NCBI RefSeq assembly: GCF_000278215.1
Contig: NZ_JH725064.1
Span: 305,587 to 369,586, forward strand
Length of the DNA: 64,000 nt
Source of the DNA: Bartonella rattimassiliensis 15908
GTDB lineage: Bacteria > Pseudomonadota > Alphaproteobacteria > Rhizobiales > Rhizobiaceae
Direction: 5' to 3'
The position numbers were made by a program, and so were the translations under genes. Below the pieces are notes generated by a model. It saw only the letters and a program-made list of their open reading frames with translations. It was not told the origin of the DNA and made no database searches. The stretch's first letter is position 1. Each line of letters starts with the position of its first letter. Positions 9,795 to 58,410 of the stretch are shown here, in pieces.

Positions 9795-9869
9795 GCGGGT
9801 GTAGCTCAGGGGTAGAGCACAACCTTGCCAAGGTTGGGGTCGTGGGTTCGAATCCCATCGCCCGCTCCA
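9795..9869 (+). tRNA. tRNA-Gly (anticodon GCC), CCA encoded
   Basis: Cloverleaf folds fully: acceptor GCGGGTG (9795-9801) pairs with CGCCCGC (9859-9865), the anticodon stem CAACC/GGTTG encloses loop TTGCCAA with anticodon GCC at 9827-9829, and the T arm contains GTTCGAATC. The discriminator T is followed by an encoded CCA (9867-9869). A prophage remnant terminus begins about 36 bp further on. Confidence 0.95.
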
Positions 9870-9904
9870 ATGATTTATTTGTTAGTTGTAGCTTGTCACC
9901 AGGT

Positions 9905-9948: not shown

Positions 9949-10025
9949 CGAAGGGTTTTTAAGGGGAGGGTCAAAGGGTCTTCAAAGGCCTTTCAAAGAT
10001 CATTTAAAGACCCTTTTAAGCCACT
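9949..10025 (+). repeat. 11-bp phased repeat array at the remnant end
   Basis: Consecutive 11-nt units, for example TCAAAGGGTCT, TCAAAGGCCTT, TCAAAGATCAT and TTAAAGACCCT, run to just before the methylase stop codon. Their reverse complement has the form CTTTGA with 11-nt spacing, the same as the array at 42001-42088 inside the left end of the intact prophage. No coding frame explains the periodicity. Confidence 0.6.
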
Positions 10026-11493: not shown

Positions 11494-12131
11494 CATGCCA
11501 ATTCCTCCACATCGCGGTTTTTCCATGCCGCTTTGACATGTTTTAGCGTCACCTCACTCCCATCTCCAAGCGCTGCCATACGTGCTAACATCATCGTCTT
11601 GTCAATTTGACGCAAAGCACCAGCTTTTAAGCCAATACCAGTCAAAAACTTTATCGCACCAACATCTTCAATCCCCCAATCATGAATGCGCGCGGCAATA
11701 TCTTCGCTATAAGGCTTGCGACGTTTTAAATGCATCGCCAAGCGGCTTTTAATTTGCGCATAAGAGGGACCATTTTGACGATGCACGAGACGTCCCGAAA
11801 TCTCATCATTGCCCCCCAAAGCCAACCCAGTACCATTGATATCAACAAAGTGGCGCAATTGATTAATGGCTTCATCCGTTAAATTTTGCGCTTCATCAAT
11901 AATCAGCAGTGTCCCACTTCCCACACGCTCTAATTTCTTGCCAATCGCACGCGTTAAGCAAGTGGGATTATATTCCACCACTTCCAATTCTGCTGCCATA
12001 TTGTTCAAAATACCATGAACACTACGCGTATGTGGGCTTGCTGTCACAAGGTAAACATGCGGACGCGTTGCGCGGTATGACGACACTTTTGGATCTTGCA
12101 ATAGTTCTGTATGTGACATAGCTTTTGACAC
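11494..12131 (-). pseudogene. MuB transposition ATPase, 5'-truncated copy
   Basis: From YRATRPHVYLVTASPHTRSV to DVEELA this is nearly identical in protein sequence to the intact MuB at 47512-48543 (for example LNNMAAELEVVEYNPT against LNDMAAELEVVEYNPT). The N-terminal DNA-binding part and the GNGKTET P-loop are missing. The first 15 codons (MSKAMSHTELLQDPK) come from dispersed repeat copy B, so the phage sequence is fused to that repeat. The Walker B region LLIIDEAQ remains, but without Walker A no ATPase activity is expected. Confidence 0.8.
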
Positions 12132-12295
12132 TTAAGTGCATTCATAAGAGATATTTTTACGCTTTTTTTCGTATTTTCACCTTCATTCCAACTTCTGCCT
12201 GTGATGTCATAAGCAAAGGGCTTTAAGTTATTTAATATGAAAGGAGACGATAAGAAAATCTTAAAATATTCAAGGCTCTGATTCCACAGATAAAA
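12125..12295 (-). repeat. Dispersed intergenic repeat, copy B
   Basis: On the minus strand: GAATCAGAGCCTTGAATATT, TAAGATTTTCTTAT, then GATGTCA-type and AAAAAGCGTAAAAATATCTC blocks, then TTATGAATGCACTTAAGTGT. This matches copies A, C, E and F in order. Its end runs directly into the truncated muB, so it marks a recombination junction. Confidence 0.6.
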
Positions 12296-12451
12296 CGATA
12301 ATTTATAATTATAAATAAAATATTTTATATAGGATGATGAAATATATGAAATGGGAAGCCGAGTGAAATTTTCTCAAAGAAGTTGAATTATTTTATGGTT
12401 GCAAGGGTTAAGAATCTTTTTTTAAGGTGAAGAGGGTGTAAAATATTTTAT

Positions 12452-12482
12452 AAAATACCGCTCTTTTTTAGAGCGGTATTTT
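12452..12482. terminator. Bidirectional Rho-independent terminator
   Basis: Perfect 13-bp inverted repeat AAAATACCGCTCT / AGAGCGGTATTTT with a 5-nt loop and AT-rich flanks on both sides. It lies about 270 bp downstream of the minus-strand polyamine gene at 12755 and probably ends that transcript. Confidence 0.7.
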
Positions 12483-12754
12483 CATATCTTTTACTGATGA
12501 CACTACTTTTCATACAGTGTGATTAAATCAGTTCTTTTTGCCTCTCTGTTTTTTTGATCATTTTTAGAAAGATAATTTATCCTTTAAGGTTGTTAAAAAA
12601 TCGCAATGTTGCCAAAAGTGAATAACGAATAACTAAAATTTTTGAAAAAATATCCTTTCATAAGAATATTAAGTTTGTTTTCATTTCATTAAACAATTTA
12701 AGGGAAGTTTTGTGATAACTTAAAGAAATCAAGCATATGTTCTCTGGGATAAAT

Positions 12755-13993
12755 TTAAAACTGTAATTTTTTATCCTCTTGTTCTTCTCTTATAAAAGTG
12801 GGAAGCCCCATATGATCAATATGTTTAAGGAAAGGGTGGGGTGGTAATTCCTCTACGTTGACCATCGTTTTAACATCCCATTCGCCTGTGGCAATAAGAC
12901 AAGCAGTTGCGGCTGCTGGTACACCAGCTGTATAGGAAATGCCTTGAGCTCCGGTTTCATGAAAAGCTTGTTTATGATCGGCTATGTTATAGATAAAAAT
13001 TTCTCTTGGTTTTCCATTTTTTTCGCCTTTAATAAGATCTCCAATACAGGTTTTTCCTGTGTAGTCTGGAGCGAGAGAGGAAGGATCAGGTAAGACAGCT
13101 TTTACAACTTTTAAAGGGACTACTTCTTGTCCTTCTGCTGTTTTAATGGGCTGTTCAGATAAGAGACCAAGATTTTTCAGAACAGTAAAAACAGTGATAT
13201 AACGTTCACTAAATCCCATCCAAAAGCGAATATTTTGAATATCAAGATTTTTCGAGAGTGAATGAATTTCATCATGTCCTGTCATATAGGCTTTTTGTTT
13301 TCCAACAACAGGAAGATCCCATTCATGACTGATTTCAAACATTTTATTGGAAGTCCACTTTTTATTTTGCCATGACCATACTTGTCCTGTAAACTCACGG
13401 AAGTTAATTTCTGGATCAAAATTTGTAGCAAACCAACGCCCATGGTTGCCAGCATTAATATCAATAATATCGATATCTGTGATTTTATCAAAATAACATT
13501 TGTGGGCTAATGCCGCATAAGCGTTAACGACACCTGGATCAAAGCCTGCGCCCAAAATAGCCGTGATACCAGCTTTTTGGCATTCTTGACGTCGTGGCCA
13601 TTCATAATTGCCATACCAAGGTGGAGTCTCACAAATTTTAAGAGGATCTTCGTGGATAGCAGTATCAATATAAGCGCATTTGGTTTTGATACAAGCTGAA
13701 AGAACAGACATATTAAGAAAAGCAGAACCGACATTGATGACAATTTCACATTTGGTCTTTTGGATGAGCTTTACAGTTTCTTCTACATTCATGGCATTGA
13801 GTGTATGGCTTTTGAGAACACCTTGTTTTTTCATTGTGTTCTTTTCTTTTATAGAAACAATAATGGCTTCACATTTTTTGAGTGTTCGTGAAGCAATATG
13901 AATTTCACCAAGAATATCGTTGTTTTCAGCACATTTGTGTGCAACAACTTGTGCAACACCTCCAGCACCAATAATGAGAACATTTTTCTTCAT
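12755..13993 (-). CDS. Carboxynorspermidine/carboxyspermidine dehydrogenase
   Basis: 412 residues of the saccharopine dehydrogenase superfamily. It joins aspartate-semialdehyde to a diamine by NADPH-dependent reductive amination, giving the carboxylated polyamine that NspC decarboxylates. The N-terminal Rossmann loop NVLIIGAGGVAQVVAHKC (residues 4-21) is clear, as are AYIDTAIHEDP and AILGAGFDPGVVNAYAA, the two most conserved blocks of the family. AAGGAG lies upstream of the ATG. It is followed after 53 bp on the same strand-order by nspC (upstream gene), so both form one operon for spermidine or homologous polyamine synthesis in the cytosol. Confidence 0.88.
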   Translation of the reverse strand: MKKNVLIIGAGGVAQVVAHKCAENNDILGEIHIASRTLKKCEAIIVSIKEKNTMKKQGVLKSHTLNAMNVEETVKLIQKTKCEIVINVGSAFLNMSVLSACIKTKCAYIDTAIHEDPLKICETPPWYGNYEWPRRQECQKAGITAILGAGFDPGVVNAYAALAHKCYFDKITDIDIIDINAGNHGRWFATNFDPEINFREFTGQVWSWQNKKWTSNKMFEISHEWDLPVVGKQKAYMTGHDEIHSLSKNLDIQNIRFWMGFSERYITVFTVLKNLGLLSEQPIKTAEGQEVVPLKVVKAVLPDPSSLAPDYTGKTCIGDLIKGEKNGKPREIFIYNIADHKQAFHETGAQGISYTAGVPAAATACLIATGEWDVKTMVNVEELPPHPFLKHIDHMGLPTFIREEQEDKKLQF

Positions 13994-14046
13994 TGTAGGT
14001 TCATCTCCTTTGTAATACTGTTATATGATGTTTTTTATGGTTATCT

Positions 14047-15147
14047 TTATGAAAGACTTTCCTGATAGTCGTTATAGCTAAACTGACGTTGCAGTGTTAG
14101 TGTGCCATCGCACTCTTTTAGAACAATAGCAGGCATTGTAATGCCATTAAACCAGTTTTTCTTGACCATTGTATAACCTGCTGCATCTTGGAAAGATAGT
14201 TTATCCCCTATTTTAAGAAGTTCTGGAAACTGAAATGTTCCAAAAATATCGCCGGCAAGACAAGATTTTCCGCAGATCATAATTTCGTGCTTTCCTTTAT
14301 TGGGTTCTAATTTGGCATTTTCACGATAAACGAGAAGGTCAAGCATATGTGCTTCAATAGAGCTGTCAACGATGGCAAGATTTTTTTGGTTATACAATGT
14401 ATCAAGAACGCTGACCTCTAAGGTAGTACTTTTGGTGATAGCGGCTTCTCCTGGTTCTAGAAAAACAGTGACACCATGAGTTTTGGAAAAATGTTTTAAG
14501 CGTTCTGCAAAAGCTTCTAGAGGATAACTTTCAGCTGTAAAGTGGATTCCACCGCCAAGGCTTATCCAGTCAACAGCAGAAAAAAGTTCTGAAAACTTCT
14601 CTTCCATATGCTCAAGCATTTGGTTAAAAAGATTAAAATCAGCATTTTCACAATTGTTATGGATCATCAAACCGTTGATGAGTGGCAAAACTTCTTTAAT
14701 AGCATTTGGATTTGTTTCTCCTAAGCGACTAAAGGGACGAGATGGATTGGCAAGATCAAAATTCGATGCACTCATTCCTGGATTTAATCTTAAACCTCGT
14801 TGAATGGTTTTTGTTGCATCAGAAAAGCGTTGAAGTTGTTGGATTGAGTTAAAGATAATTTTATCTGCATAACCACAGGCTTCGTCAATTTCATGATCTG
14901 CCCAAGCAACTGAATAGGCATGAGTTTCTTTGCCAAATTTTTCTCTTCCTAAACGCAGTTCATAAAGGGATGATGATGTGGTTCCATCCATGAATTCGGA
15001 CATTAAATCAAAAACACTCCATGTGGCAAAACATTTCAAGGCAAGCAAAACTTTTGCTCCTGACATTTCCCGTAAACGAAAAATCGTTTGCATATTTTTA
15101 ATGAGCTTCAATTTATCTATAAGATAATAGGGGGTTTTTATCATCAT
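14047..15147 (-). CDS. nspC: Carboxynorspermidine decarboxylase
   Basis: 366 residues. PLP-dependent fold III enzyme (alanine racemase-like barrel) that removes CO2 from carboxy(nor)spermidine. The PLP lysine is K38 in VLLALKCFATWSVFD. GLMIHNNCENADF, DWISLGGGIHF and VFLEPGEAA give the phosphate-binding and substrate segments, and ICGKSCLAGDIFG carries the cysteine of the second active site half. The length agrees with the family. The start MMIKTPYYLIDK has two possible ATGs three bases apart. It is cotranscribed with the dehydrogenase downstream. Confidence 0.9.
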   Translation of the reverse strand: MMIKTPYYLIDKLKLIKNMQTIFRLREMSGAKVLLALKCFATWSVFDLMSEFMDGTTSSSLYELRLGREKFGKETHAYSVAWADHEIDEACGYADKIIFNSIQQLQRFSDATKTIQRGLRLNPGMSASNFDLANPSRPFSRLGETNPNAIKEVLPLINGLMIHNNCENADFNLFNQMLEHMEEKFSELFSAVDWISLGGGIHFTAESYPLEAFAERLKHFSKTHGVTVFLEPGEAAITKSTTLEVSVLDTLYNQKNLAIVDSSIEAHMLDLLVYRENAKLEPNKGKHEIMICGKSCLAGDIFGTFQFPELLKIGDKLSFQDAAGYTMVKKNWFNGITMPAIVLKECDGTLTLQRQFSYNDYQESLS

Positions 15148-15811: not shown

Positions 15812-16045
15812 AAATTATTAAATAAAATTTTAATTGCTTCTTGTCGTGAGCGTTATTGTTCTTACAATTAAAGGGAAAGCTTGTGCGGTGCGTAGTATTT
15901 TCATGGAATATTGTTTTTTGAAAAATTTAAATGCTTTTAAGTTTTATTAAATCTTATTATCATGAAGTGTAGAATGGGGGGTGTGAAAATATAAATTTTT
16001 GTTTTGTCGATGATAAAATATTAAGAGCAGTATGGAGCTGAAAGA

Positions 16046-18967
16046 ATGACAATACGGGAAGCAATGTTAATATTGCTCGTTTTGCTTCCTTTTGGTGGAA
16101 GTTCTGTTATTGGTTTTTTTCGTTCGACAGCAAAAAATAATGAAGCGTGGTTTGCTGGAAGCATTGCTCTTTTTAGTCTTCTTTTTACAATCATGCTTTA
16201 TCCGTCGGTTCGTGAAAATCACACTATACGTTTAGATATTTCTTGGCTTCCAGCATGGGGAGGAGATTTAATCCTTCGAATGGATGGTTTGTCATGGCTT
16301 TTTTGCTTACTCATTACAGGAATTGGGCTGCTTATCGTTGTTTATGCGCGTTATTATATGAATCCGGCAGATTCTGTACCACGATTTTTTTCTTTTTTTC
16401 TGGCATTTATGGGGTCTATGACAGGAATTGTTTTATCAGGTAATCTCGTTTTTTTAGTTATTTTCTGGGAACTTACCAGTATTTTTTCTTTTTTATTGAT
16501 TGGCTATTGGTATCATAATGCTAGTGCGCGTGAAGGGGCGCGTATGGCTTTAACGATTACAGGTTTTGGTGGATTTACCCTTTTTATTGGGGTTTTATTG
16601 ATTGGCTATATCGTTGGTAGTTTTGATCTGGATAAGATTTTGCAGTCTGGAGATATGATCCGGTCAAGTTCGCTTTATTGCCCTGCTCTTATTTGTATCT
16701 TATTGGGTGGATTAACAAAAAGTGCACAGTTTCCTTTTCATTTTTGGTTGCCCAATGCGATGGCTGCTCCAACACCTGTATCGGCTTATTTGCATTCGGC
16801 AACGATGGTGAAAGCAGGATTGTTTTTGTTGGTTCGTTTATGGCCCGTGCTTTCTGGGACGGAGTCTTGGTTTTGGCTGGTTGGCTTTTCAGGACTCTCA
16901 ACACTTCTTCTTGGCGCTTATTTTTCTATGTTTCAGCAAGATTTAAAGGGATTGCTTGCTTACTCAACGATTAGTCATCTTGGATTGATTACCACGCTTT
17001 TAAGTCTTGGAAGTCCCCTTGCATGTGTTGCAGCGATTTTTCATATGGCTAATCATGCTACTTTTAAAGCTTCTTTATTTATGGCTGCTGGCATTATTGA
17101 TCACGAAACTGGGACACGTGATATGCGTAAACTGACAGGACTTTATCGCTCTATGCCCATTACAGCAACTCTTGCTTTAGTCGCAAGTGCAGCGATGGCT
17201 GGTGTTCCTTTGCTTAATGGTTTTTTATCAAAAGAAATGTTTTTTGCTGAAGCTGTTGAAACGCATATGGAATCATGGCTCGATTGGATTGCTCCTTATG
17301 TAGCAACACTCGCTAGCCTTTTTAGTGTGACATATTCTATACGTTTTATTCATGGTGTCTTTTGGGGACCAAAACCAGACAAATTACCCAAAACTCCCCA
17401 TGAACCACCGCATTTTATGCGTTTGCCAATCGAGCTTTTAGTGTTTATTTGTTTGGCAGTTGGTATTTTTCCTAATTTAACAATAGGACCTATTTTAGAT
17501 AATGCTGTTGTATCTGTTTTAGGACCAATGACAATCTCTTATAGTTTGGCTGTTTGGCATGGGTTTAATACACCATTAGTGATGAGCTTAGTGGCTTTAT
17601 TAGGAGGCGGATTGCTTTATATTGCTGGGCGACGTTATTTCTTATCTTGTGATGATGGAGCGCCCTTTTTTCGTCACTTGAAAGGAACACGTATTTTTGA
17701 ACGCATTCTTGTGATTCTTTCTTGGAAATGGGCGCGTGCGGTGGAAGCTGTTTTGTCAACACGTCGTTTGCAAATACAGTTGCATTGGATCTTTGGTGTG
17801 TGTTTTATTTTTGTTGGTTCTTTGCTTTGGTGTGATGGTTTAATTGTCGCAGGAGGATTACCACTTTTCCCACTTGATATTCCTTTTCTTGCTCTTTGGT
17901 TAGTCGGTGGATTATGTGCTATTTTAGTCGCTTGGCAAGCAAAGTTTCATCGCCTTGCATCACTCATGCTATTGGGGGGAGCAGGTTTGATGACTTGCGC
18001 AACCTTTTTATGGCTTTCTGCACCCGATTTGGCAATAACGCAATTGGTTGTTGAGGTGGTGACAACTGTCTTATTATTGCTTGGTTTGCGTTGGTTGCCT
18101 AAGCGTGTGTATAATTCTGCGCCAACGTCTGTTCATTTTGGAGTACGTTTACGTCGTGCTCGTGATTTCATCATAGCAATTATGGGAGGTGCAGGTGTTT
18201 CATGGTTATCTTTTGCGGTGATGACACGCCCTCAAGGGACGACTGTTTCTAACTTTTTTCTGGAAAATGCTTATTCTGGTGCTGGTGGTCGCAATGTTGT
18301 GAATGTATTGTTGGTTGATTTCCGTGGTTTTGATACTATGGGAGAAGTTGTGGTTTTGGGGGTTGTTTCGCTGACTGTCTTTGCCCTTTTGCGTCGATTC
18401 CGCCCTGCTCCTGAAAGTATTGATGCACCGTTTCAACAACGTATTCAGGAAGCTTTTGATAAGGCACAGCCAGATCGAAATGTAGGGGATACAGTGTTGA
18501 ATTATCTCGCTATTCCTTCTGCTATTATGGGATGGCTCTTTTCTGTTATTATTGCTTTTTCTTTTTACTTATTCGTACGAGGGCATGATCTTCCAGGAGG
18601 AGGATTTGTCGGGGGAGTGACTTTAGCGATAGGATTTATTTTACAATATCTTGCACGCGATATTCATTGGGTAGAAAACCATTTGAAAGTTTTGCCGCTA
18701 CGTTGGATGGGTTTTGGCTTGTTATTATCGGCTCTAACGGGAATAGGGGCTTTATTTTTTGGGTATCCTTTTTTAACATCATTTTTCCAATATATTCATG
18801 TGCCGTTGATTGGAAAGGTGCCTATAGCATCTGCTTTTTTATTTGATTTTGGTGTGTTTTCTCTTGTCTTGGGAGCAACAGTTCTCATTTTAATTGCACT
18901 TGCGCATCAATCAATTCGTAGTTACCGAATCGGTAAAAAACCTGCTTTGAAAGAGAAGGAAAATTAA
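16046..18967 (+). CDS. mrpA: Na+/H+ antiporter subunit A, fused MrpA-MrpB
   Basis: 973 residues, inner membrane. First subunit of the Mrp cation/proton antiporter, homologous to complex I NuoL. The proton-pumping antiporter module spans about residues 60-480, with KSAQFPFHFWLPNAMAAPTPVSAYLHSATMV-type motifs (positions 16720-16810) holding the key Lys and His. The C-terminal 150 residues (DTVLNYLAIPSAIMGW, RGHDLPGGGFVGG) are an MrpB domain, so subunits A and B are one protein, as in rhizobial Pha systems. It opens a six-gene operon with start/stop overlaps; GGAGCTGAAAGA precedes the ATG. Role: Na+ or K+ efflux and pH homeostasis. Confidence 0.92.
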   Translation: MTIREAMLILLVLLPFGGSSVIGFFRSTAKNNEAWFAGSIALFSLLFTIMLYPSVRENHTIRLDISWLPAWGGDLILRMDGLSWLFCLLITGIGLLIVVYARYYMNPADSVPRFFSFFLAFMGSMTGIVLSGNLVFLVIFWELTSIFSFLLIGYWYHNASAREGARMALTITGFGGFTLFIGVLLIGYIVGSFDLDKILQSGDMIRSSSLYCPALICILLGGLTKSAQFPFHFWLPNAMAAPTPVSAYLHSATMVKAGLFLLVRLWPVLSGTESWFWLVGFSGLSTLLLGAYFSMFQQDLKGLLAYSTISHLGLITTLLSLGSPLACVAAIFHMANHATFKASLFMAAGIIDHETGTRDMRKLTGLYRSMPITATLALVASAAMAGVPLLNGFLSKEMFFAEAVETHMESWLDWIAPYVATLASLFSVTYSIRFIHGVFWGPKPDKLPKTPHEPPHFMRLPIELLVFICLAVGIFPNLTIGPILDNAVVSVLGPMTISYSLAVWHGFNTPLVMSLVALLGGGLLYIAGRRYFLSCDDGAPFFRHLKGTRIFERILVILSWKWARAVEAVLSTRRLQIQLHWIFGVCFIFVGSLLWCDGLIVAGGLPLFPLDIPFLALWLVGGLCAILVAWQAKFHRLASLMLLGGAGLMTCATFLWLSAPDLAITQLVVEVVTTVLLLLGLRWLPKRVYNSAPTSVHFGVRLRRARDFIIAIMGGAGVSWLSFAVMTRPQGTTVSNFFLENAYSGAGGRNVVNVLLVDFRGFDTMGEVVVLGVVSLTVFALLRRFRPAPESIDAPFQQRIQEAFDKAQPDRNVGDTVLNYLAIPSAIMGWLFSVIIAFSFYLFVRGHDLPGGGFVGGVTLAIGFILQYLARDIHWVENHLKVLPLRWMGFGLLLSALTGIGALFFGYPFLTSFFQYIHVPLIGKVPIASAFLFDFGVFSLVLGATVLILIALAHQSIRSYRIGKKPALKEKEN

Positions 18968-19308
18968 TGGAAATTATTCTTTCTTTGGCTATTGGTGTTC
19001 TGGTGGGATCTGGAATTTGGCTCATTTTGCGCCCCAGAACTTTTCAAGTCATTCTTGGTTTGTCTTTGATCTCCTATGGTGTTAATCTTTTCATGCTTGC
19101 AATAAGTAGACCCCGCAGTAATGCTGCCCCAATTGTTGATCCTACTACGGTGATTAATACAGCAAATTATGTGGATCCTCTTCCTCAGGCTTTGGTTTTA
19201 ACTGCGATTGTGATCGGTTTTGCAACGACAGCTTTATTTTTGGTTATCCTTCTGGTTTCGCGCGGTTTAACAGGCTCAGATCACGTTGATGGACGTGAGG
19301 TACAGTGA
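18967..19308 (+). CDS. mrpC: Na+/H+ antiporter subunit C
   Basis: 113 residues, three predicted membrane segments, related to NuoK. The ATG shares its A with the stop codon of mrpA (TAATG). Motifs GLSLISYGVNLFMLA and DPLPQALVLTAIVIGFATTA are characteristic of MrpC/MnhC. Required for assembly of the hetero-oligomeric antiporter. Overlaps mrpD by four bases. Confidence 0.92.
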   Translation: MEIILSLAIGVLVGSGIWLILRPRTFQVILGLSLISYGVNLFMLAISRPRSNAAPIVDPTTVINTANYVDPLPQALVLTAIVIGFATTALFLVILLVSRGLTGSDHVDGREVQ

Positions 19309-20930
19309 TGGGAGCTTGCGTGCATCACCTTCTTATTTTTCCTATTCTTTTGCCGTTAAGTACAGGAGCACTTCTCCTTTTCTATGATGAACGTCGTTCA
19401 AAATTGAAATCACTCATAAGTATCTTTTCTGCTGCTGTGTTAGTTGTTGTGTCTGCTTTATTGGTGAGACGCACTCTTGAAGTTGCGCCAGCTTTAGATG
19501 TTTATCGGCTTGGGAATTGGTCTTCCCCTTTCGGTATTGTTTTAGTGTTGGATCGTTTAAGCGCTATGATGCTTTTACTTTCTAGTCTATTGATTACTGC
19601 AGCATTGATTTTTGCACGAGCATATTGGTATAAAGCAGGTCCTCATTTTCAGTCATTGATGCAATTTTTTATGGTGGGAATAAATGGCGCTTTTTTGACA
19701 GGTGATTTATTTAATTTATTTGTATTTTTCGAAGTGATGTTAACAGCTTCTTATGGGCTTGCGTTGCATGGCTCTGGTCCGTTACGTGTGCGTGCAGGAT
19801 TGCATTATGTCGTGATTAATCTGGTTGCTTCATTGTTTTTTCTCATTGGTGCGGCACTCATTTATGGAATCGTAGGCACGCTCAATATGGCCGATTTGGC
19901 TGTAAAAATAAAATATATAGCCTCTAGTGATGTGATTTTATTTGAAATAGGTGCAGCTCTTTTGGGAATTACTTTCTTGTTAAAAGCAGGGATCTGGCCA
20001 TTGAATTTTTGGTTGATGCCAACTTACAGTGCAGCAGTCGCGCCCGTTGGAGCTTCTTTTGCACTTTTAAGCAAGGTGGGTATTTATATTATTCTACGTT
20101 TAACATTGCTATGGTTTGGACCTGAAAGTGGACATTTTAGCCATTTTGGTCAAATGGTTTTGTTTTACGGTGGCCTTGCCACTATGGCTTTTGGTTTTAT
20201 TGGGGTGTTGGCAAGCCAAGTTTTAGTACGTTTGGTGGCTTATAGTGTTTTAGTCTCTTCTGGCACATTGTTGACAGCGATTGGAATTGGCAATACAGCC
20301 CTGATTGCAGGGGCACTCTTTTATATTATTTCCTCAACTTTGGCTCTTGGTGCTTTTTTTCTTTTGGTGGAATTGGTGGAACGTTGTCAAGATGTAGCAG
20401 CAAATGTTTTGACGGTTACAATGGAGGTTTATGGTGACGATGAAGAGCAAGAAGAAGATGAAGTGGGGACGTATTTACCGGTAAATTTGGCAATTCTTGG
20501 AGCTTGTTTTGGGCTTTGTGCACTTTTGATTATTGGTCTACCACCTTTTTCTGGTTTTGTTGCTAAATTTATGATGTTCGTGGCACTCTTAAATCATAGT
20601 AGAGAAAATCTTTCTACTGCTTTACCCGTTTATCATGATTGGCTTTTTATAACTTTTGTTACTCTATCTAGTTTTGCTGCTTTGATTGCAATGACCAGAA
20701 CGGGTATTCGGACTTTTTGGGTTTCTCTTGAAGAGAAGATTCCACGGGTGCAAGTGATTGAATTTGCCTCTGTTACTGCGCTCATTGCTTTGTGTTTTCT
20801 TATTACAATTGTTGCTGGTCCTATTAGTCGTTATATGCTTGAAACAGCCAAAACTTTGTATGAACCTCAAAATTATATCAGAAGCGTTTTAGATGATTTT
20901 TCTCTTGAAAATAAGGGGATGAACCGGTGA
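19305..20930 (+). CDS. mrpD: Na+/H+ antiporter subunit D
   Basis: 541 residues, about 14 membrane segments, NuoM/N-like proton-conducting subunit. FFMVGINGAFLTGDLFNLFVFFEVMLTASYGL (split positions 19670-19760) holds the conserved glutamate in the FFEV motif, and LLKAGIWPLNFWLM with SAAVAPVGASFALLSKVGIY holds the conserved lysines. A short acidic insertion (GDDEEQEEDEVG) faces the solvent. Overlaps mrpC by ATGA and mrpE by four bases, so translation is coupled. Confidence 0.92.
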   Translation: MMGACVHHLLIFPILLPLSTGALLLFYDERRSKLKSLISIFSAAVLVVVSALLVRRTLEVAPALDVYRLGNWSSPFGIVLVLDRLSAMMLLLSSLLITAALIFARAYWYKAGPHFQSLMQFFMVGINGAFLTGDLFNLFVFFEVMLTASYGLALHGSGPLRVRAGLHYVVINLVASLFFLIGAALIYGIVGTLNMADLAVKIKYIASSDVILFEIGAALLGITFLLKAGIWPLNFWLMPTYSAAVAPVGASFALLSKVGIYIILRLTLLWFGPESGHFSHFGQMVLFYGGLATMAFGFIGVLASQVLVRLVAYSVLVSSGTLLTAIGIGNTALIAGALFYIISSTLALGAFFLLVELVERCQDVAANVLTVTMEVYGDDEEQEEDEVGTYLPVNLAILGACFGLCALLIIGLPPFSGFVAKFMMFVALLNHSRENLSTALPVYHDWLFITFVTLSSFAALIAMTRTGIRTFWVSLEEKIPRVQVIEFASVTALIALCFLITIVAGPISRYMLETAKTLYEPQNYIRSVLDDFSLENKGMNR

Positions 20931-40847: not shown

Positions 40848-41806
40848 CGTCAATTTAGCTTTAGTCTCAAGCCTGCACCTATCCTCCAATGTCCACCAAA
40901 ACTCGTTGCTGATATATTAGAACGCATCTTACTATCTTCTATCATATAACTAGCACCGATAAAAAGGCAGATTCACCACACCATATACCCATACCAAGAG
41001 AGAAATTTAAAGATCCAGGGGTATCAAAATAACTTAAGTTCGATACTGCTAAACCAACAGTTGCTGCCTGTCGTCTGGCCTCTTTCTGAATTGCCTTAAT
41101 ATCAATATTTTAATGCTTCAAATTTCGTATCCGTGTAAGATTTTGCCTCATTAATAACATTACTCATCGCATTATCTATGACATCATCAAAACGTTTATC
41201 TGTGTATTTTTTTGTGTCATCAAGAACTGTCTTCATCTGCTCTTTAGGGTAATCATACAATCGTTCACCATTGATAGCTTCTTTTGAACCATTTTCAATG
41301 TGCCTTTCAGCAACATTGTCTATTAATACGGGATCACTTTCATTTCCACCAATTAAGCTGATTTTATTGGTCTTATTGCCTTTCTCATCTTTATCATATT
41401 TAACTGCTCCATCCACTACACTGGCAATATCTTTTACACGCCTATCAATACCCTCTACCTTGTTTTCAACCTTGTTAACCCTATCATTTGTTAGCCAAAG
41501 TTAGCTTCTATTGATGGCATCTTTCGAATCTTTCTTTATTTTATCATCTTCTACATGTGTAATCTTACTGTCCTACCCCTGATAATGTGCGTCATATGCT
41601 TTTTCATCCTCATTCTAATTTAAACCACTCAACGTAACACTATTGAATTGTGCAACATGGAATTTGGGGGCTATCCGTTTTCCGTCTTTATATTCAGCAC
41701 GACCACCAAAATACGTGGCAAGCTTATTACTCATCGAATAAAGCTGGGAACCATTGATTGCAGCCCTTGAGTCTTCAGAAATTCCATCCTTGGCAAGAAA
41801 GCTAAT
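40848..41806 (-). pseudogene. Trimeric autotransporter, 3' remnant
   Basis: Homologous to the C-terminal part of the intact adhesin at 35713 but interrupted by several stops and frameshifts. Recognisable pieces are the neck (DGISEDSRAAINGSQLYSMS near 41750), NKLATYFGGRAEYKDGKRI, then MDGAVKYDKDEKGNKTNK and ESDPVLIDNVAERHIENGSK in the 41102-41416 frame, and the degraded YadA anchor down to 40848. The similarity stops at about 41806, exactly where the prophage left end is proposed, so the prophage probably split this gene and its 5' part would lie beyond the far end of the prophage. Confidence 0.8.
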
Positions 41807-41870
41807 TGTAGTTTGACAGTAGGTTTTGCATTAAGTGGGAATAGGTGGGATTAGTTAGGAATACGTGATA
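41807..41870 (+). other. Proposed prophage left terminus with 10-bp repeats
   Basis: TGTAGTTTGACAGTAGG followed by TTTTGCATTAA begins with TGT as Mu ends do and matches the remnant terminus at 9905. At 41831-41870 four units of exactly ten bases follow (TTAAGTGGGA, ATAGGTGGGA, TTAGTTAGGA, ATACGTGATA), which could be transposase end-binding sites. A 5-bp target duplication cannot be checked because the right end is not in the window. Confidence 0.55.
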
Positions 41871-42000
41871 ATTTATTGTTTTTATGTACAAAATTTAGCA
41901 TTAAAAGCGCGTTTTGTCAAAATAGATTTTGACACCTAAAATGGTCAAAAAACGCGAAAAATGGTAAAAAGCGCGTTTTCATGGTAAAAGTAAGAGAAAG

Positions 42001-42088
42001 CTTTGAAAGGTCTTTGAAAATCCTTTGAAGATTTTTAAAAAGTCTGTGAAAGCCCAGAAAACCGCCTTTGAAGACCCTTTGAAAAAAA
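42001..42088 (+). repeat. 11-bp phased CTTTGAA array inside the prophage left end
   Basis: Eight consecutive 11-base units: CTTTGAAAGGT, CTTTGAAAATC, CTTTGAAGATT, TTTAAAAAGTC, TGTGAAAGCCC, AGAAAACCGCC, TTTGAAGACCC, TTTGAAAAAAA. The period is exact over 88 bases. The reverse-complement form occurs at 9949-10025 by the remnant terminus, and a short version at 58228-58271. Confidence 0.65.
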
Positions 42089-42267
42089 TCAATCCAAAAG
42101 TTCAATTGATTCCAAAATCAAATAAAAATGACCCAAAAAGCAAAAAAGATTTTCACCTATTGATGATTATCTATTTTTATAGGTAAAATATAATTATAAA
42201 TCAAATAGTTATATAATTTTTCTAATGTAAAAAGATTTTCATATCGAGTTTTGATTTTAGAGGGGCA

Positions 42268-42795
42268 TTAAGCCGTATCTTGTGTGGTTTCTAGATGTGC
42301 ACTTTCAGCCTCGATTTGACGCTTTAAATGCAATTTTAGAAGAGGCAAAGTAAGTTCGACTTCCTCTGTGTCGTTGATGTTTTGAACAAGCTCTTGCAGT
42401 TTTCCATAAAGCTCTGCCGCTAATTCCGCTATATCTTCAGGGGGGAGTTTTATATTTGCATCGCGATAGGTTGTATAAGCTATGCGACCAAGTTTTTTCA
42501 TCAGTCCAGCAGGAATGGTGGGTGGAGAGATATTGAAAGTCCGAGTCATCATCATGTCTACAAACATTCCATCTTCACCAGTCAAAAGCCAATTCAGATT
42601 CACTCCAAATTTTTCTTTATATGATGATAAAACGGTTGCATCTGGAGTTCTATCACCGCGTTCGTAATTTCCAAGCCCTTGAATACTGATACCAATTTTA
42701 AGAGAAAATATATCACGAGATAAGCCCACAAGCTTTCTAACCTCTGTGAGTCGTTTTGCTAATGCGGTTTTTGGCTCATTTTTTTGTCGTGTCAT
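42268..42795 (-). CDS. Phage repressor, XRE-type HTH
   Basis: 175 residues. HTH in residues about 10-65 (LAKRLTEVRKLVGLSRDIFSL, GISIQGLGNYERGDRTPD), followed by a linker (NLNWLLTGEDGMF) and an acidic helical C-terminus rather than a LexA-like protease domain. It is transcribed away from the early operon, divergent from ner, as the c repressor of Mu is. It should keep the transposition genes off in the lysogen, probably through the palindrome at 42809-42838. Confidence 0.8.
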   Translation of the reverse strand: MTRQKNEPKTALAKRLTEVRKLVGLSRDIFSLKIGISIQGLGNYERGDRTPDATVLSSYKEKFGVNLNWLLTGEDGMFVDMMMTRTFNISPPTIPAGLMKKLGRIAYTTYRDANIKLPPEDIAELAAELYGKLQELVQNINDTEEVELTLPLLKLHLKRQIEAESAHLETTQDTA

Positions 42796-42808
42796 ATTAT
42801 AAATGTCT

Positions 42809-42838
42809 ACAAATGGGGTTGATTAATGTTCCATTTGT
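42809..42838. promoter_or_regulatory. Candidate operator: ACAAATGG-N14-CCATTTGT
   Basis: Perfect 8-bp inverted repeat with a 14-bp spacer in the divergent intergenic region, 14 bp from the repressor start. The half-site spacing (22 bp centre to centre, about two helical turns) suits a dimeric HTH protein, either the repressor or Ner. Confidence 0.5.
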
Positions 42839-42899
42839 ATATATATCTTTAATTACCGCCCGCTATTGAGGGCGTTTATTGTACATTTAACCCCACAAA

Positions 42900-42924
42900 A
42901 AACGGATGGTTTGAGCATCCGTTT
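42900..42924 (+). other. Hairpin in the 5' leader of ner
   Basis: AAACGGATG / CATCCGTTT with a 7-nt loop ends six bases before the AGGAG that serves ner. A second, weaker hairpin (CGCCC/GGGCG, 42857-42874) precedes it. Either could limit early transcription or protect the message. Confidence 0.45.
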
Positions 42925-42942
42925 AAAGCAGGAGCGAAAGTT

Positions 42943-43248
42943 ATGACAACCACACAAACATGCATGCAAGTATGGGATCGCCATAGTATTTTAGCCGAGC
43001 TACGCCGCCGTAACATGACCTTGGCGGAGCTCGCGAAAGCTTATCAACTCCCGTCATCCAGCGTTCAACATATCTGGACACGACCCAACGAGAAAGCCGA
43101 ACGCGCTATTGCCGACTTTATCGGTTTGCCCGTTGAGCAGGTTTTCTCCGACCGCTACCCCAAAAGTCGCCGTCGCATTTTTAAAGCAGCAAAACACGCT
43201 CATACAGATTCGGTAACACAGTCCGCATTGCGCGGTAATGCTGCTTGA
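42943..43248 (+). CDS. Ner-like early regulator, HTH
   Basis: 101 residues. WDRHSILAELRRRNMTLAEL, AKAYQLPSSSVQHIWTR, ERAIADFIGLPVEQVFSDRY follows the Ner/Nlp (SfsB) family, a small winged HTH that in Mu negatively regulates the early and repressor promoters. AGGAG at 42930. First gene of the early operon. Confidence 0.85.
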   Translation: MTTTQTCMQVWDRHSILAELRRRNMTLAELAKAYQLPSSSVQHIWTRPNEKAERAIADFIGLPVEQVFSDRYPKSRRRIFKAAKHAHTDSVTQSALRGNAA

Positions 43249-43324
43249 ACTTCGTTACACGGCTTTGCGTGTGTCATACGCATTTGCCATGAATTTAAAT
43301 ACCATAAGATAAAAAGGTTTATCA

Positions 43325-43462
43325 ATGTCTAAAGATCAATACGAAATAGGCAAGATAAATTGCATAGCGTTGCATCATGGAGCAGCCGATTGGATGGGTT
43401 GTTTTTTAAGATTAGCTGGTCAAGTTTTCTTTATCGGGGGTGGTTATGGTTGCTGCTTATAA
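43325..43462 (+). CDS. Small phage protein, unknown
   Basis: 45 residues: MSKDQYEIGKINCIALHH, then GAADWMGCFLRLAGQVFFIG and GGYGCCL. The stop overlaps the start of the next gene. ATAAAAAGG lies upstream. No family recognised; the Gly/aromatic/Cys-rich second half could be a membrane segment. Modest confidence that it is translated. Confidence 0.35.
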   Translation: MSKDQYEIGKINCIALHHGAADWMGCFLRLAGQVFFIGGGYGCCL

Positions 43463-43844
43463 TTTATGGGCTCCCGAGGCAAAAAGAGAAATTCTTAATC
43501 CTTATTCAGAAGCTGAACGTTTGGAAGCCATGCTTGCCTGTTCTTTTAAGGCGGTGAGTGGCGGATTTAAACATTTGCCGATCCGGTATATTATAGACCC
43601 TCCGCATGGCTTATTTGATGCGGCGTTAGCACGACAGATTGTTATTCATATTTTGCATTATCAGTTTGAGGTGCCGCGTCGGCGTCTTGTTGCCATGCAA
43701 GAGCGTGAACGCACGGCTGTTGCTCGTTCTTTGCGTACAATTAATCGGCGTTTGGAAGAACCTATTTTCGCGAAAGCCTATCGAAGATGGGCAGGACGTG
43801 CGATGGATTTGTTCTTTAAAGAGATCAGAAAGGCAGCGGGGTGA
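43440..43844 (+). CDS. DnaA C-terminal domain-like phage protein
   Basis: 134 residues from GTG 43440 (ATG 43446 also possible). The segment HGLFDAALARQIVIHILHYQFEVPRRRL, then RERTAVARSLRTINRR resembles domain IV of DnaA (helix-turn-helix that reads DnaA boxes: ARQIAMYL...R.R..V..AL..I..R). It has no AAA+ domain, so it would be a DNA-binding adaptor only. Similar proteins accompany ParB-like and MuA genes in other alphaproteobacterial Mu-like phages as I recall. Its function in transposition or replication is not known. Confidence 0.55.
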   Translation: MVMVAAYNLWAPEAKREILNPYSEAERLEAMLACSFKAVSGGFKHLPIRYIIDPPHGLFDAALARQIVIHILHYQFEVPRRRLVAMQERERTAVARSLRTINRRLEEPIFAKAYRRWAGRAMDLFFKEIRKAAG

Positions 43845-44782
43845 TGGCACAGTTTCAAGAGATTGCTTTAGATTTGATTGTGGTGCCGGAGTGTATACGC
43901 CCTGTGGATGATGAGCATGCCAAGGCACTTGCGCAATCGATGGCGCGGGAGGGATTGATGAATCCGATTACGGTGCGCCATACGCCCAATGCTAAGGAAG
44001 GCAATTACACGCTGATTGCTGGTGCGCATCGGCTGAGGGCTGCAGAGCTTTTGGGTTATAGCAAAATTGATGCGGTTGTGGTGAAAGCGGATAAGGACAA
44101 TGCTGCGCTTTTAGAGGTTGCGGAAAACCTCTTTCGCAATGAATTATCAGTGATTGATCGTGCGCTTTTTGTCCAGACGTATCGCGAGTTGTGGGAAAAG
44201 AAGTATGGGGAAATTAAACGTGGCGGTGACCACGGTAATCAATATACAAAGGACAAAGTGGCAAAGGTGCAAGTTGCACCTTTGCCAAAAGATGGTTCTT
44301 CAGGGCATCATGAAACTGGGTGTGAAGGGAACGAAGTGGCAAAGGGTCAAGTTGACTCTTTGCCAAATGATGGTGCTTTAAATGGTAAAGTGCAAAGTTT
44401 GCACTTTGCCAAACATGTGGCGGACCGCATTGGTTTCTCTCAAGATGTCGTGAAACGTCTCAACTGTATTTCTAAGCATTTACAGCCGGAGTTGCGGTCT
44501 GTTTTGCGTGGGACGGCCTTGGCAGATAATCAAGCGCAGTTGTTAAAGCTTGCGAAGATGGAGCCGGTTTCGCAACGGCGGGTGGCGATTGCTTTGCAAC
44601 AGGTTGAGGGGAATTTGCGGCGGGCTGTTGATTTGATCAATGGGGTTAATACGCCACCGCAAATCAATGAACAGGAACGGATTTTTGCTCAATTGTTGGG
44701 TGTGTGGCAGAGAGCAGATGCGCAGACAAAGGCGCGGTTTTGTGATTACCTTGCAAGAGAACGGGGGGAAGAGCAGGCATGA
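43841..44782 (+). CDS. ParB-N domain protein with palindrome-rich linker
   Basis: 313 residues. ParB/Srx-type N-terminal domain: IVVPECIRPVDDEHAKALAQS, MNPITVRHTPNAKEG, YTLIAGAHRLRAAELLGY and VVVKADKDNAALLEVAENLFRNELS, the GxHRxxA box I and ENxxRxxLS box II both conserved. A variable linker follows (GGDHGNQYTKDKVAKVQVAPL to QSLHFAK) and then a helical region with SQDVVKRLNCISKHL. Three 27-bp palindromes fall in that linker. It overlaps the genes on both sides by four bases. Role: possibly plasmid-like partition, nucleotide hydrolysis or transposition accessory; not certain. Confidence 0.75.
   Translation: MMAQFQEIALDLIVVPECIRPVDDEHAKALAQSMAREGLMNPITVRHTPNAKEGNYTLIAGAHRLRAAELLGYSKIDAVVVKADKDNAALLEVAENLFRNELSVIDRALFVQTYRELWEKKYGEIKRGGDHGNQYTKDKVAKVQVAPLPKDGSSGHHETGCEGNEVAKGQVDSLPNDGALNGKVQSLHFAKHVADRIGFSQDVVKRLNCISKHLQPELRSVLRGTALADNQAQLLKLAKMEPVSQRRVAIALQQVEGNLRRAVDLINGVNTPPQINEQERIFAQLLGVWQRADAQTKARFCDYLARERGEEQA
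44260..44286. repeat. 27-bp palindrome 1 in the parB-like gene
   Basis: GGCAAAGGTGCAA / TTGCACCTTTGCC with one central G: a perfect 13-bp inverted repeat inside the linker coding sequence. The variants 2 and 3 keep complementarity while changing bases. Confidence 0.8.
44338..44364. repeat. 27-bp palindrome 2 in the parB-like gene
   Basis: GGCAAAGGGTCAA / TTGACTCTTTGCC around a central G. Twelve of 13 positions pair as DNA, and the remaining G-T would pair as G-U in RNA. Differences from palindrome 1 are mostly compensated on the other arm. Confidence 0.75.
44384..44410. repeat. 27-bp palindrome 3 in the parB-like gene
   Basis: GGTAAAGTGCAAA / TTTGCACTTTGCC around a central G. Twelve of 13 positions pair. 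Starts 46 bases after the start of palindrome 2. Confidence 0.75.
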
Positions 44783-45237
44783 AGACGCGTGGTTCCCATC
44801 AACTTGATTTTTTTCAAAAGCCCGTTTTTCCTTGTCGTGAACCGGTGGCGCAGATTGATTTGGGGCGGTTTCGTTCTCGTATCAAGCGCGCTATGGCACG
44901 GGCTTTGAGAGAATGCCGGCATGAGCGCAGTGTGATAGCCGAGCGTATGGCGCATTATTTAGGGATTGCTTGTTTAAGTAAGGCGAGTTTGGATGCTTAT
45001 GTGGCAGAAAGTAAGCAGGTTGATATTTCTTTGCCGCGTTTTAAAGCCTTTGTGCGGGCAACAGAAGCCTATTGGCTTTGGGATGAGGTGGTGAGTGAAG
45101 ATGGATTGTTGCTTTTGCAAGGGGATGAGGCGCGTTTAGCAGAGATTGCGCGCCTCCAGCAGGAACAGCGTGAGATTGCGGCGCAATTGAAAGCCATGCG
45201 TGCAACGCCGGTGCAAATTAAACGGGGGCAGTCATGA
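44779..45237 (+). CDS. Phage protein of unknown function upstream of muA
   Basis: 152 residues, overlapping its neighbours by ATGA at both ends. Begins with a basic region (FRSRIKRAMARALRECRHERS), then VIAERMAHYLGIACLSKASLDAY, VAESKQVDISLPRFKAFVRAT and ends in a coiled coil (LAEIARLQQEQREIAAQLKA). The middle looks like an XRE-type HTH with a long loop. Its place between the ParB-like gene and muA suggests a role in the transposition or early regulation module. I do not recognise a named family. Confidence 0.7.
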   Translation: MKTRGSHQLDFFQKPVFPCREPVAQIDLGRFRSRIKRAMARALRECRHERSVIAERMAHYLGIACLSKASLDAYVAESKQVDISLPRFKAFVRATEAYWLWDEVVSEDGLLLLQGDEARLAEIARLQQEQREIAAQLKAMRATPVQIKRGQS

Positions 45238-47252
45238 AGGAATGGTTTACTATTGCTGAATTAGCTGAGGCGGCTTTGCCAGGGTTGCCATCGACCTATA
45301 AAAGTCTTGAAAACCATGGACGAGCATATTGGAGAAAAAATGCTGAGCTTTCAAGGAAAGTGGGAGGCAAAACGAAGCCGGTTTGGGAGTATCACATTTC
45401 CTTATTACCGGAGGGGGCACGGACGGCATTGTTGGTGCGCTGTGGTGGGGGGTGTGTTGCGCAACAAAGTCAAGGTGAGAAGAAAGCTGAGCAACGTGAT
45501 CAAAAGACAAGTGTTTGGGAGCGTTATGAAGGGCTTTCAAAGGCGCATAAAAGACGTTGTGAAGAGCGTTTGAAGGCACTTTGTTCTATGGATGATTTGC
45601 TTCAAGCAGGTATGGGTGTGCATGATGCGGCAAGTTTGTGTGCGGTGCAATTTGGTGTGAGTTGCAGATCACTTTTTCATTGGCGGCAGATGGTGGAAGG
45701 GTATGAACGCCCTGATTGGTTGGCAGCCTTAGCACCTTGTTATGGTGAGGAGAATGTTTCGCAATTTGCGCCGTGTCATGAGGGGGCATGGGAGGTTTTG
45801 TGTTCGGATTATTTGCGTTCGTCCCGCCCTGCTTTTTCGGCCTGTTATCGACGTATGGTGATGGTGGCGCGTGAGAAAGGGTGGGCGCCCATTCCTTCAG
45901 AGCGGGCGTTACGCCGGCGTTTTAAAGCGCAAGTTTCCAAAGCGGTTGTGGTGTTGGCGCGTGAGGGAGAGGAGAAGGCCAAGAAGCTTTATCCGGCACA
46001 ACGGCGTGATCGCTCGAGTTTGCATGCACTGCAAGCGGTGAATATGGATGGGCATAAGCTGGATGTTTTTGTGAGCGTTCCTTGGGAGCAAAAACCTGTG
46101 CGGCTTTATTTGATAGCGATACAAGATCTTTATTCAGGCAAGATTTTATCGTGGCGTTTGTCGGATGCGGAGAGTTGGGAAATCGTGCGTTTGGTGATTG
46201 GGGACATGGTAGAGGCTTATGGGATACCGGAGCGCATGACCTTGGATAATGGGCGTGCTTTTACCAGCAAGTGGATTTCTGGGGGCGTGCAAAATCGCTT
46301 TCGCTTTAAAATTAAGCCGGATGATCCGCAGGGGCTTTTGACGAGTTTGGGTGTGCAATTGCACTGGACGACCCCTTATAGTGGACAGTCGAAACCGATT
46401 GAGCGGGCATGGCGTGATTTGGCAGAAGCGATTTCTAAACACCCTTTTTGTGCTGGGGCTTATACGGGCAATAAGCCGGATGCGAAGCCTGAAGATTATG
46501 GAAAACGTGCGATAGGATTTGAAGAATTCAAAACCCATGTTGGGGCGCAGATTGTGGCGCATAATGGTCAAGCAGGGCGCAAGGCGTTCAATTGTGCGGG
46601 GCGCAGTTTTGATGAGACTTTTGCAGAAAGTTTGACAGCAGAGGGGACGATTATTCGGCAGGCAACGGCAGCACAGCGTGCTTTATGGCTTTTGACTTCA
46701 GAAGCATTGCGCACGCAAAAGGGCACAGGGGAGATCCATTTTTATGGCAACCGTTATTGGGCGCGGGCGTTGAATGAGTATGCGGGGAAGAGGGTGATTG
46801 TACGCTTTGATCCGGATCATTTGCACCAAGATTTGCGGGTTTATGATTTGAACAATCGGTTGCTTTGCATGGCAGCGTGTCTTGCGGATGTGGGCTTTTA
46901 TGACCAGCAGGCAGCGCGTTTGAATAGGCGTTTGCGTAAAGAATATGTGAAGGCAGTTAAAGCAGAAAAACAGTTGGCAGCAAAGCTTGCGCCTGATCAC
47001 TTGGCTGATGTTTATAGGCGCCTTGAACGAAAGGAAGATGGTTCAAAATCCAAGCCTGTTGTTAAGCCAAAGGTTAGCCGCTTGATGCCAAACCATGCGG
47101 GGAATTTGGCTTTGAAAGCCAATAGCTGTGAAGATTTAGGGGATGATGAAGCTTTGGGGGCTCGAGAATTTAGTCAACATTTGCACAAAGCTTTAAGACG
47201 GCTTTCTGCCTCTGATGAGGGGCGTGAAGTGATAAAGTTTCCTAAACGATAG
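45234..47252 (+). CDS. Mu-type transposase A (DDE)
   Basis: 672 residues, similar to MuA (663). An N-terminal winged HTH (MuA domain I-alpha like: WFTIAELAEAALPGLPSTYKS, NHGRAYW) binds the internal enhancer; the following helical domains bind the ends. The rve catalytic core has D272 (NMDGHK), D338 (TLDNGR) and E390 (KPIERAW), spaced almost as in Mu (D269, D336, E392). The C-terminal region (DHLADVYRRLERKE onward) is the likely MuB/ClpX-interacting tail. Performs strand transfer for lysogenic insertion and replicative transposition. All motifs are intact. Confidence 0.93.
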   Translation: MKEWFTIAELAEAALPGLPSTYKSLENHGRAYWRKNAELSRKVGGKTKPVWEYHISLLPEGARTALLVRCGGGCVAQQSQGEKKAEQRDQKTSVWERYEGLSKAHKRRCEERLKALCSMDDLLQAGMGVHDAASLCAVQFGVSCRSLFHWRQMVEGYERPDWLAALAPCYGEENVSQFAPCHEGAWEVLCSDYLRSSRPAFSACYRRMVMVAREKGWAPIPSERALRRRFKAQVSKAVVVLAREGEEKAKKLYPAQRRDRSSLHALQAVNMDGHKLDVFVSVPWEQKPVRLYLIAIQDLYSGKILSWRLSDAESWEIVRLVIGDMVEAYGIPERMTLDNGRAFTSKWISGGVQNRFRFKIKPDDPQGLLTSLGVQLHWTTPYSGQSKPIERAWRDLAEAISKHPFCAGAYTGNKPDAKPEDYGKRAIGFEEFKTHVGAQIVAHNGQAGRKAFNCAGRSFDETFAESLTAEGTIIRQATAAQRALWLLTSEALRTQKGTGEIHFYGNRYWARALNEYAGKRVIVRFDPDHLHQDLRVYDLNNRLLCMAACLADVGFYDQQAARLNRRLRKEYVKAVKAEKQLAAKLAPDHLADVYRRLERKEDGSKSKPVVKPKVSRLMPNHAGNLALKANSCEDLGDDEALGAREFSQHLHKALRRLSASDEGREVIKFPKR

Positions 47253-57981: not shown

Positions 57982-58388
57982 AGAACACCGGAAAGCTCAG
58001 TTGGCTTTTGTGGAAAGAGAAGGTGTGAAGGAAAAAGAGAAGGCGTGGAGGGCGGTCAACTCCTCGCAGATCCGGTAAAACCGTCCTGGTATAACTGGCT
58101 CACGCCTTACACCCAATGATATAATGTTTTTAAGCCAAAAAGCAATCTTTAAAAAAACGGCTTGAGAGAGGCTTTGTTGTGTGGAGTGATAAATTGTACC
58201 TTTAACTTCACAACAGCGCTCTATCGCCTTTGAAGTGCCTTTGAAAACGATTTTATGAGAGAGTTTGAAACGGGTGTTTTCTCTTACAGGTCATAAGAAC
58301 AGAAAAGAGTGTCGATACTTTTAAAAACTCATACTTTTAAAAACGCGTGTTTTATTTAAACGTGCTTTATTTAAAGAAGTGCCCTTTT
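57982..58388 (+). other. Noncoding gap between the F-like and I-like genes
   Basis: About 480 bp up to the protease gene without a supported frame, rare in this compact element. It contains two CTTTGAA 11-bp units at 58228-58249 (CTTTGAAGTGC, CTTTGAAAACG) with a related GAGTTTGAAAC further on, and ends with the late promoter element. In Mu the strong gyrase site lies between genes G and I; this is the matching place, with G missing. Confidence 0.5.
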
Positions 58389-58410
58389 GACTGACACTGT
58401 CAGACTTATA
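58389..58410 (+). promoter_or_regulatory. Late promoter element PI with palindrome
   Basis: GAC, TGACA-C-TGTCA, G and ACTTATA match the lysis promoter element at 50848-50869 at 21 of 22 positions, and the single difference is the centre of the palindrome. TATAGC is a possible -10. It lies 56 bp upstream of the protease gene, as PI does in Mu. Confidence 0.65.

Follow-up and report, generated by a model that had tools for sequence, protein, structure and literature searches.

Arrays of 11-bp units just inside both ends of a Bartonella Mu-type prophage

The Mu precedent and the prophage of the window

Assembly of the transpososome of phage Mu requires the binding of MuA, via its I-alpha domain, to an enhancer (IAS) which is also bound by the repressor as an operator; this element consists of several CTTT-containing units, located between c and ner and spaced 12-16 bp within clusters. 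The Mu genome further has 22-bp transposase sites, attL and attR, inside both ends, and a central gyrase site (SGS) with an AT/GC periodicity near 11 bp, while its insertion into target DNA is near-random. The arrays that concern us here are like the IAS in their several CTTT-containing units, and the transposase of the phage that carries them keeps an I-alpha-type match, but they differ from it in a period of about 11 bp and in their place, at both ends and inside the MuA gene instead of between c and ner, and the accompanying repressor matches HTH_19/HTH_3. They are like the SGS in their AT/GC periodicity, a middle array even lying in the corresponding gap; yet the SGS is central and lacks a chain of TTYRAA cores, whereas the strong arrays here are terminal and the central one is weak. 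As for attL and attR, they too lie inside both ends, but outside the array, which is a separate motif of shorter period, further in. Clusters of DnaA boxes or of parS are alike as multiple short sites, and proteins resembling DnaA domain IV and ParB are encoded beside MuA; we take the array motif, however, to be neither a DnaA box nor parS. Our searches of the open-licence literature brought up no description of these arrays, or of tRNA-adjacent insertion by Mu-type phages.

The window, by which we mean the whole stretch of 64,000 nucleotides of a Bartonella chromosome that was analysed (C1:305587-369586), holds a Mu-type prophage of about 35.2 kb, identified by its MuA, MuB, F and I genes, with a DDE transposase domain (PF02914, 3e-42) accompanied by MuB (Phage-MuB_C, 3.2e-21). 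It extends from a left terminus at 41807 to a right terminus outside the window, at C1:382556, which was chosen by judgement, since further truncated copies come after it. The left terminus (41807..41830, forward strand), a candidate end site for the transposase, is the inverted repeat TGTAGTTTGACAGTAGGTTTTGCA, which pairs with TGTAGCTTGACGCCAGGTTTTGT at the right terminus. The flanks of this prophage, CTAAT and ACAAG, show no 5-bp duplication; TGT..ACA termini are seen, and an exact 5-bp duplication is found in 3 of 17 relatives (the end pairing of the other 14 being unconvincing) and in 2 of 12 miniature elements. Among the 80 loci kept out of 118, all those with a transposase at 79-94 % identity to that of the window come from Bartonella genomes. 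Left-end DNA is present in 37 of 61 Bartonella genomes, and so is right-end DNA, against 23 of 61 for MuA, which implies that many copies are remnants or miniature elements. One such place (locus L029, about 11600-14260; C4:103600-106260) has the right end of a remnant directly abutting the left end of another, of about 2.5 kb, with open reading frames sized like c, ner and the methylase, followed by its own right end beside tRNA-Gln.

Arrays at both ends in Bartonella

The left-end array (42001..42088, forward strand) reads CTTTGAAAGGT CTTTGAAAATC CTTTGAAGATT TTTAAAAAGTC TGTGAAAGCCC AGAAAACCGC CTTTGAAGACC CTTTGAAAAAA. The initial annotation saw in it eight exact 11-base units; there are indeed about eight units of approximately 11 bp, but CTTTGAA is exact in just five (starting at 42001, 42012, 42023, 42066 and 42077), the middle units being degenerate and one unit measuring 10 bp. 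The array has 44 identities out of 77 at lag 11, where 5000 samples from a first-order Markov model of the region give 21.8 +/- 5.6 (p=0.0004, or p=0.001 when any lag from 8 to 13 is allowed, with 1000 samples). A second array (9949..10025, reverse strand) belongs to a right-end remnant whose terminus, at 9887, lies 17 bp from the 3' end of tRNA-Gly. With 40 identities out of 66 against 17.1 +/- 4.3, a value that none of 5000 samples reaches, it too bears out the expectation of a lag-11 signal above that of shuffled sequence, and it is inverted in the window, as first described, with two exact TTCAAAG and one TTTAAAG. Nowhere else in the 64 kb is the lag-11 score as high as in these two arrays (37 and 34, the next window having 29). 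The initial annotation would have been refuted by an intact right end without an array; this end, about 12.8 kb past the end of the window, does carry one, at C1:382435-382474 and on. Both end arrays occupy an equivalent spot just inside the element, as had been proposed from the window; in distant phages this place is kept, the phase less clearly so. On the phage map, the CTTTGAA of both end arrays reads on the same strand, which may mean little, since the wider core, TTYRAA, is palindromic.

A comparison of nonredundant Bartonella ends, 31 from the left and 33 from the right (fetched loci covering at least 80 % of the query), shows that on either side the conserved stretch reaches inward as far as the array, and that the array is conserved about as much as the terminal part. 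At left ends, conservation is 0.86-0.97 per 11-bp block of the array and 0.65-0.66 in the 22 bp just inside; at right ends it drops to 0.57 at the inner edge of the array, as gauged over about 11 bp. The exact pattern CTTTGAAN4CTTTGAA has 12 copies in the phage's own host genome, where the backwards pattern has none, and it is present in 15 of 41 genomes, 14 of 25 within the genus and 1 of 16 outside; a few of these genomes, with a single copy and other spacers, may reflect chance. Miniature elements, Mu-derived and MITE-like, consist of two phage ends fused through one array: 12 were fetched, of 292-359 bp, from nine Bartonella genomes, and 11 of them keep the chain of units, although they may retain it merely because both ends share it.

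The immediate surroundings of the arrays bring to mind two explanations tied to gene expression. As they come after the stop codons of the repressor and methylase genes, the arrays could form an RNA hairpin or terminator at the edges of the element, and the right-hand ones fold slightly better than shuffled sequences (z -1.64/-2.31 for the remnant, -1.02/-1.78 for the intact right end); the left array does not (z -0.60 and 0.08), and the three terminator-like sites in 41700-43300 all lie away from it, no hairpin with a T-run being found there, which makes this explanation highly improbable. That the arrays be an operator of the phage repressor or of Ner is also very unlikely: the left one does adjoin the repressor gene, but downstream of its stop, a counterpart lies at the far right end, and the matched chain filter, applied to 41814-64000, selects chains solely at 42001 and 58206, and none between c and ner.

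Distant relatives and copies within the phage

The arrays are real, look functional and extend beyond the prophage of the window, as is seen in MuA relatives at about 43-58 % identity, taken from genomes of Rhizobiales, with a few of other groups, and from viral contigs, where automatic inverted-repeat search for termini was unreliable. Upstream of MuA, in 92 nonredundant loci, pairs of the degenerate core TTYRAA are spaced by 11 (15 pairs), 21-22 (19), 32-33 (21) or 44 bp (9), with 7 pairs at 12 and 0-4 at other spacings; downstream, there are 26 pairs at spacing 11, many at one place inside MuA. Of 29 records of related phages, 16 contain chains according to the chain filter, 29 in all; the reversed control has none, and shifted spacings give 0, 1, 0, 0 and 0. 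The 29 chains are not independent events, as several are copies of one coding place, and the other 13 records, POA1180 among them, have no chain at the threshold. Thirteen stretches of host DNA, amounting to 238 kb (80 kb from the own genome), yield none. In Mu, Ab30 and RcapMu no TTYRAA chain appears even at a lower threshold, while Vibrio phage martha and Rhodovulum phage RhkS_P1 have one weak chain each (5.0 and 6.9).

The strongest test relies on an independent landmark, a run of GGGAWTA phased at 10 bp near the left terminus (41837..41864, forward strand). Pairs of GGGAW at spacings 10, 20 and 30 number 77, 57 and 24 in the 92 loci, against 0-6 at other spacings, and 33 of the 92 have at least three units, with none in the reversed control. 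When 37 nonredundant distant loci are set on this landmark, TTYRAA occurs 0.97, 0.59 and 0.35 times per locus in the three 30-bp bins at 150-240 bp inside the left end, and 0-0.14 times in other bins, an enrichment of about 8-20-fold; the left array of the window lies at 164-251 on the same scale. The array motif is present clade-wide at a fixed offset. Mean lag-11 identity peaks at the same 150-240 bp (0.317/0.305, with 0.295 at the landmark and about 0.25 beyond 280 bp), and at least two exact cores spaced 11, 22 or 33 are found in just 11 of the 37 left ends. At 20 right ends, TTYRAA is most frequent 60-120 bp away from the terminus, with 0.5 and 0.3 occurrences per locus against 0-0.25 elsewhere; mean lag-11 identity is not raised there. 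A test that makes no use of the motif, on 14 ends of seven elements, yields a Stouffer z of 5.3 for lag 11 and 2.8 for lag 12; lag 10, which reflects the landmark, has 5.5, and the remaining lags lie between -2.5 and 1.4. At lag 11, five of the 14 ends reach p<0.05, two of them from Bartonella, without which z is about 3.2 (hand calculation). A motif-free lag scan upstream of MuA without the end landmark, where lag 11 was best in 28 and lag 10 in 53 of 137 loci, was uninformative.

The GGGAWTA run has a counterpart in Mu, at nt 31-70 approximately, close to the place of the Mu packaging site, and it is perhaps itself a packaging site. The initial remark that no such array is known in Mu agrees with the lack of TTYRAA chains in that phage; Mu does share a different periodic element at its left terminus. 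For the 11-bp arrays themselves, a role as pac site for the small terminase subunit is hardly credible: helical phasing near a terminus would suit the wrapping of DNA round the terminase ring, but the array is found at both ends and not at the left end only, and the separate GGGAW run is closer to the left terminus.

Within the phage, a weak middle array (58206..58271, forward strand) lies in the gap between F and I, upstream of I, where Mu has its gyrase site. Of the short array first placed at 58228-58271, two exact units and one partial unit are seen, but the lag-11 signal (p=0.053, or 0.24 for lags 8-13) is not significant alone; the chain filter selects 58206-58250, with a score of 9.9 and no chain in the reversed sequence. 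This central gap, together with a 10.75-bp motif periodicity, makes gyrase the main structural rival: the arrays would be sites where flexible AT cores and GC spacers wrap on the GyrA C-terminal domain and aid in bringing the ends together. The Mu record annotates the gyrase cut site in that gap. Some windows of the Mu gap rank among the highest 0.3-0.5 % in AT/GC periodicity at 10.5-12.5 bp, and within nt 16000-20500 it is here that lag 10 and lag 11 score best; published studies report a 10.75-bp GC periodicity in the arms of the gyrase motif (PMC6379681) and bending repeat motifs in the right arm of the SGS (PMC10052514). Against this, a specific word, TTYRAA, is selected here, beyond mere alternation of AT and GC; no TTYRAA chain appears in the Mu gap when the threshold is set low, and the periodicity of that gap is not confined to 11 bp; in RcapMu, martha and Ab30, the corresponding gap is less highly ranked; and the strongest arrays are terminal. 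We therefore hold gyrase wrapping to be unlikely. The repeat TCTGACACTGTCAGTCAAAA adjoins internal arrays in two late intergenic gaps, at about 6640-6700 of locus L028 and at 58380-58410 of the window.

A further phased motif lies in the MuA coding sequence itself (45516..45581, forward strand; residues 95-116 approximately), with a lag-11 score of 28, shared fourth in the 64 kb. In 118 relatives, the excess of A/T at third positions is greatest in the MuA window of residues 94-117 (z 10.0); a second such peak is seen at residues 165-188 (z 8.8, for a window standard deviation of 4.1). When synonymous codons are shuffled within the gene in 84 phages below 85 % identity, the period-11 motif at residues 95-120 has a Stouffer z of 11.3, and windows starting outside residues 75-115 range between -3.8 and +2.1; taken one by one, 31 of the 84 phages have p<=0.05 here, and the same count at three control places is 6, 0 and 4. 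A TTYRAA-like motif in the MuA gene is kept by synonymous choice; as periods 8-14 are all raised there (z 6.3-10.3), place and motif are clearer than period. The synonymous test excludes, for MuA alone, that the coding array reflects an amphipathic helix, which other coding arrays may do.

That arrays also lie inside the phage, with no obvious tie to transposition, speaks against a role specific to the ends. They might serve to condense or silence the prophage by binding either a nucleoid protein of the host or a partition-like protein of the phage, in which case the ends would be two sites among several. The further arrays inside MuA and the middle and late genes agree with this, as does the Mu prophage being reported as a stable domain (PMC3820752). 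Silencing, however, does not require the array to lie at a set distance from either terminus, and no chain was found in the 238 kb of host DNA, so that we view this explanation as rather improbable.

Proposed binding, synapsis and target choice

The reading that we prefer, at about even confidence, is that the array is an accessory, enhancer-like strip of the transposition ends that binds protein. A sequence-specific protein would recognize a short core, (C)TTYRAA(R), that recurs at about every turn of the helix; several of its subunits would align on one face of the DNA, at either end and immediately inward of the transposase sites, and would thereby help assemble or control the synaptic complex. 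Binding, its cooperativity and a part in transposition are what we infer from place, phase and conservation.

As to which protein would do so, the single likeliest candidate, tentative and well short of an even chance, is the N-terminal I-alpha domain of MuA (45234..47252, forward strand), which has an HTH_Tnp_Mu_1 match of I-alpha type (PF02316, 9.5e-6), its residues 2-68 also matching the transcriptional repressor family phrog_7148 (E 5.8e-4). This domain is kept while the repressor is of another family, hence it would be without the operator partner that it has in Mu. Three candidates encoded upstream on the same strand are together about as likely. A 134-aa protein (43440..43844) has a predicted fold like that of DnaA domain IV (AlphaFold pLDDT 89), its best PDB match being the DnaA DNA-binding domain (prob 1.00, E 0.032, TM 0.50/0.66) in a fold search against PDB that gave no match at E<=0.001. 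A ParB-like protein (43841..44782; PF02195, phrog_3264) comes next; a study of two Mu-like roseophages notes a ParB, and virions free of random host DNA (PMC5488378). The third, a 152-aa HTH protein (44779..45237; phrog_2345, transcriptional regulator; pLDDT 80), has a weak fold match to a regulator of phage 186 (prob 0.95, E 0.42) and is strongly conserved, at 53-97 % identity in 34 relatives. Gene presence was tried as a test of the binder and is not discriminating: all 29 records, with arrays or without, have ParB, the 152-aa protein, MuA and MuB, and 27 of them have the 134-aa protein.

The right ends have a further property, their proximity to tRNA genes. In Bartonella, the 3' end of a tRNA faces a terminus in 26 of 30 right-end loci (best hits, one per genome, a count that includes sites possibly shared by descent between species), at 0-49 bp in 24 loci and 131-138 bp in two, the other four having no tRNA; at left ends, a tRNA is present in 6 of 30 loci. 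The tRNAs involved are those for Ser, Met, Gln, Gly and Lys, and truncated right termini are often stacked beside them, which suggests repeated insertion; the window provides an example at 9869-9887, and further ones are found in loci L092-L121 and L390-L409. Outside Bartonella, a single tRNA is present within 20 kb in 17 of 20 right flanks, in 16 of them tRNA-Met, and in each of the 17 a candidate terminus, TGT[AT]G[CT], lies at a distance of 9-75 bp from the tRNA 3' end. A few of these candidates may be due to chance. In three cases, with tRNA-Met at 16, 23 and 75 bp, an exact duplication of 5 bp shows that the insertion is a true one. In a prophage survey (PMC6536676), prophages with tyrosine (and one serine) recombinases have tRNA sites, and at least three of the five Mu-like rows bear the entry 'not identified'. 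Placement in one orientation, with the right end downstream of the tRNA 3' end, suggests a programmed choice of target.

We may go one step further and propose, as a conjecture that we hold to be unlikely, that in this clade helically phased arrays at the two ends have taken the place of the single Mu enhancer, with a copy overlapping the transposase gene, all bound by a dedicated phage protein, and that the same machinery directs oriented insertion 3' of tRNA genes. Transpososome assembly is known mainly from Mu, and the arrays represent a second layout of cis-elements; found at a fixed distance though the transposases share only about half their residues, this layout provides a handle on end selection and synapsis, while oriented, tRNA-adjacent insertion makes the choice of target by a Mu-type phage testable.
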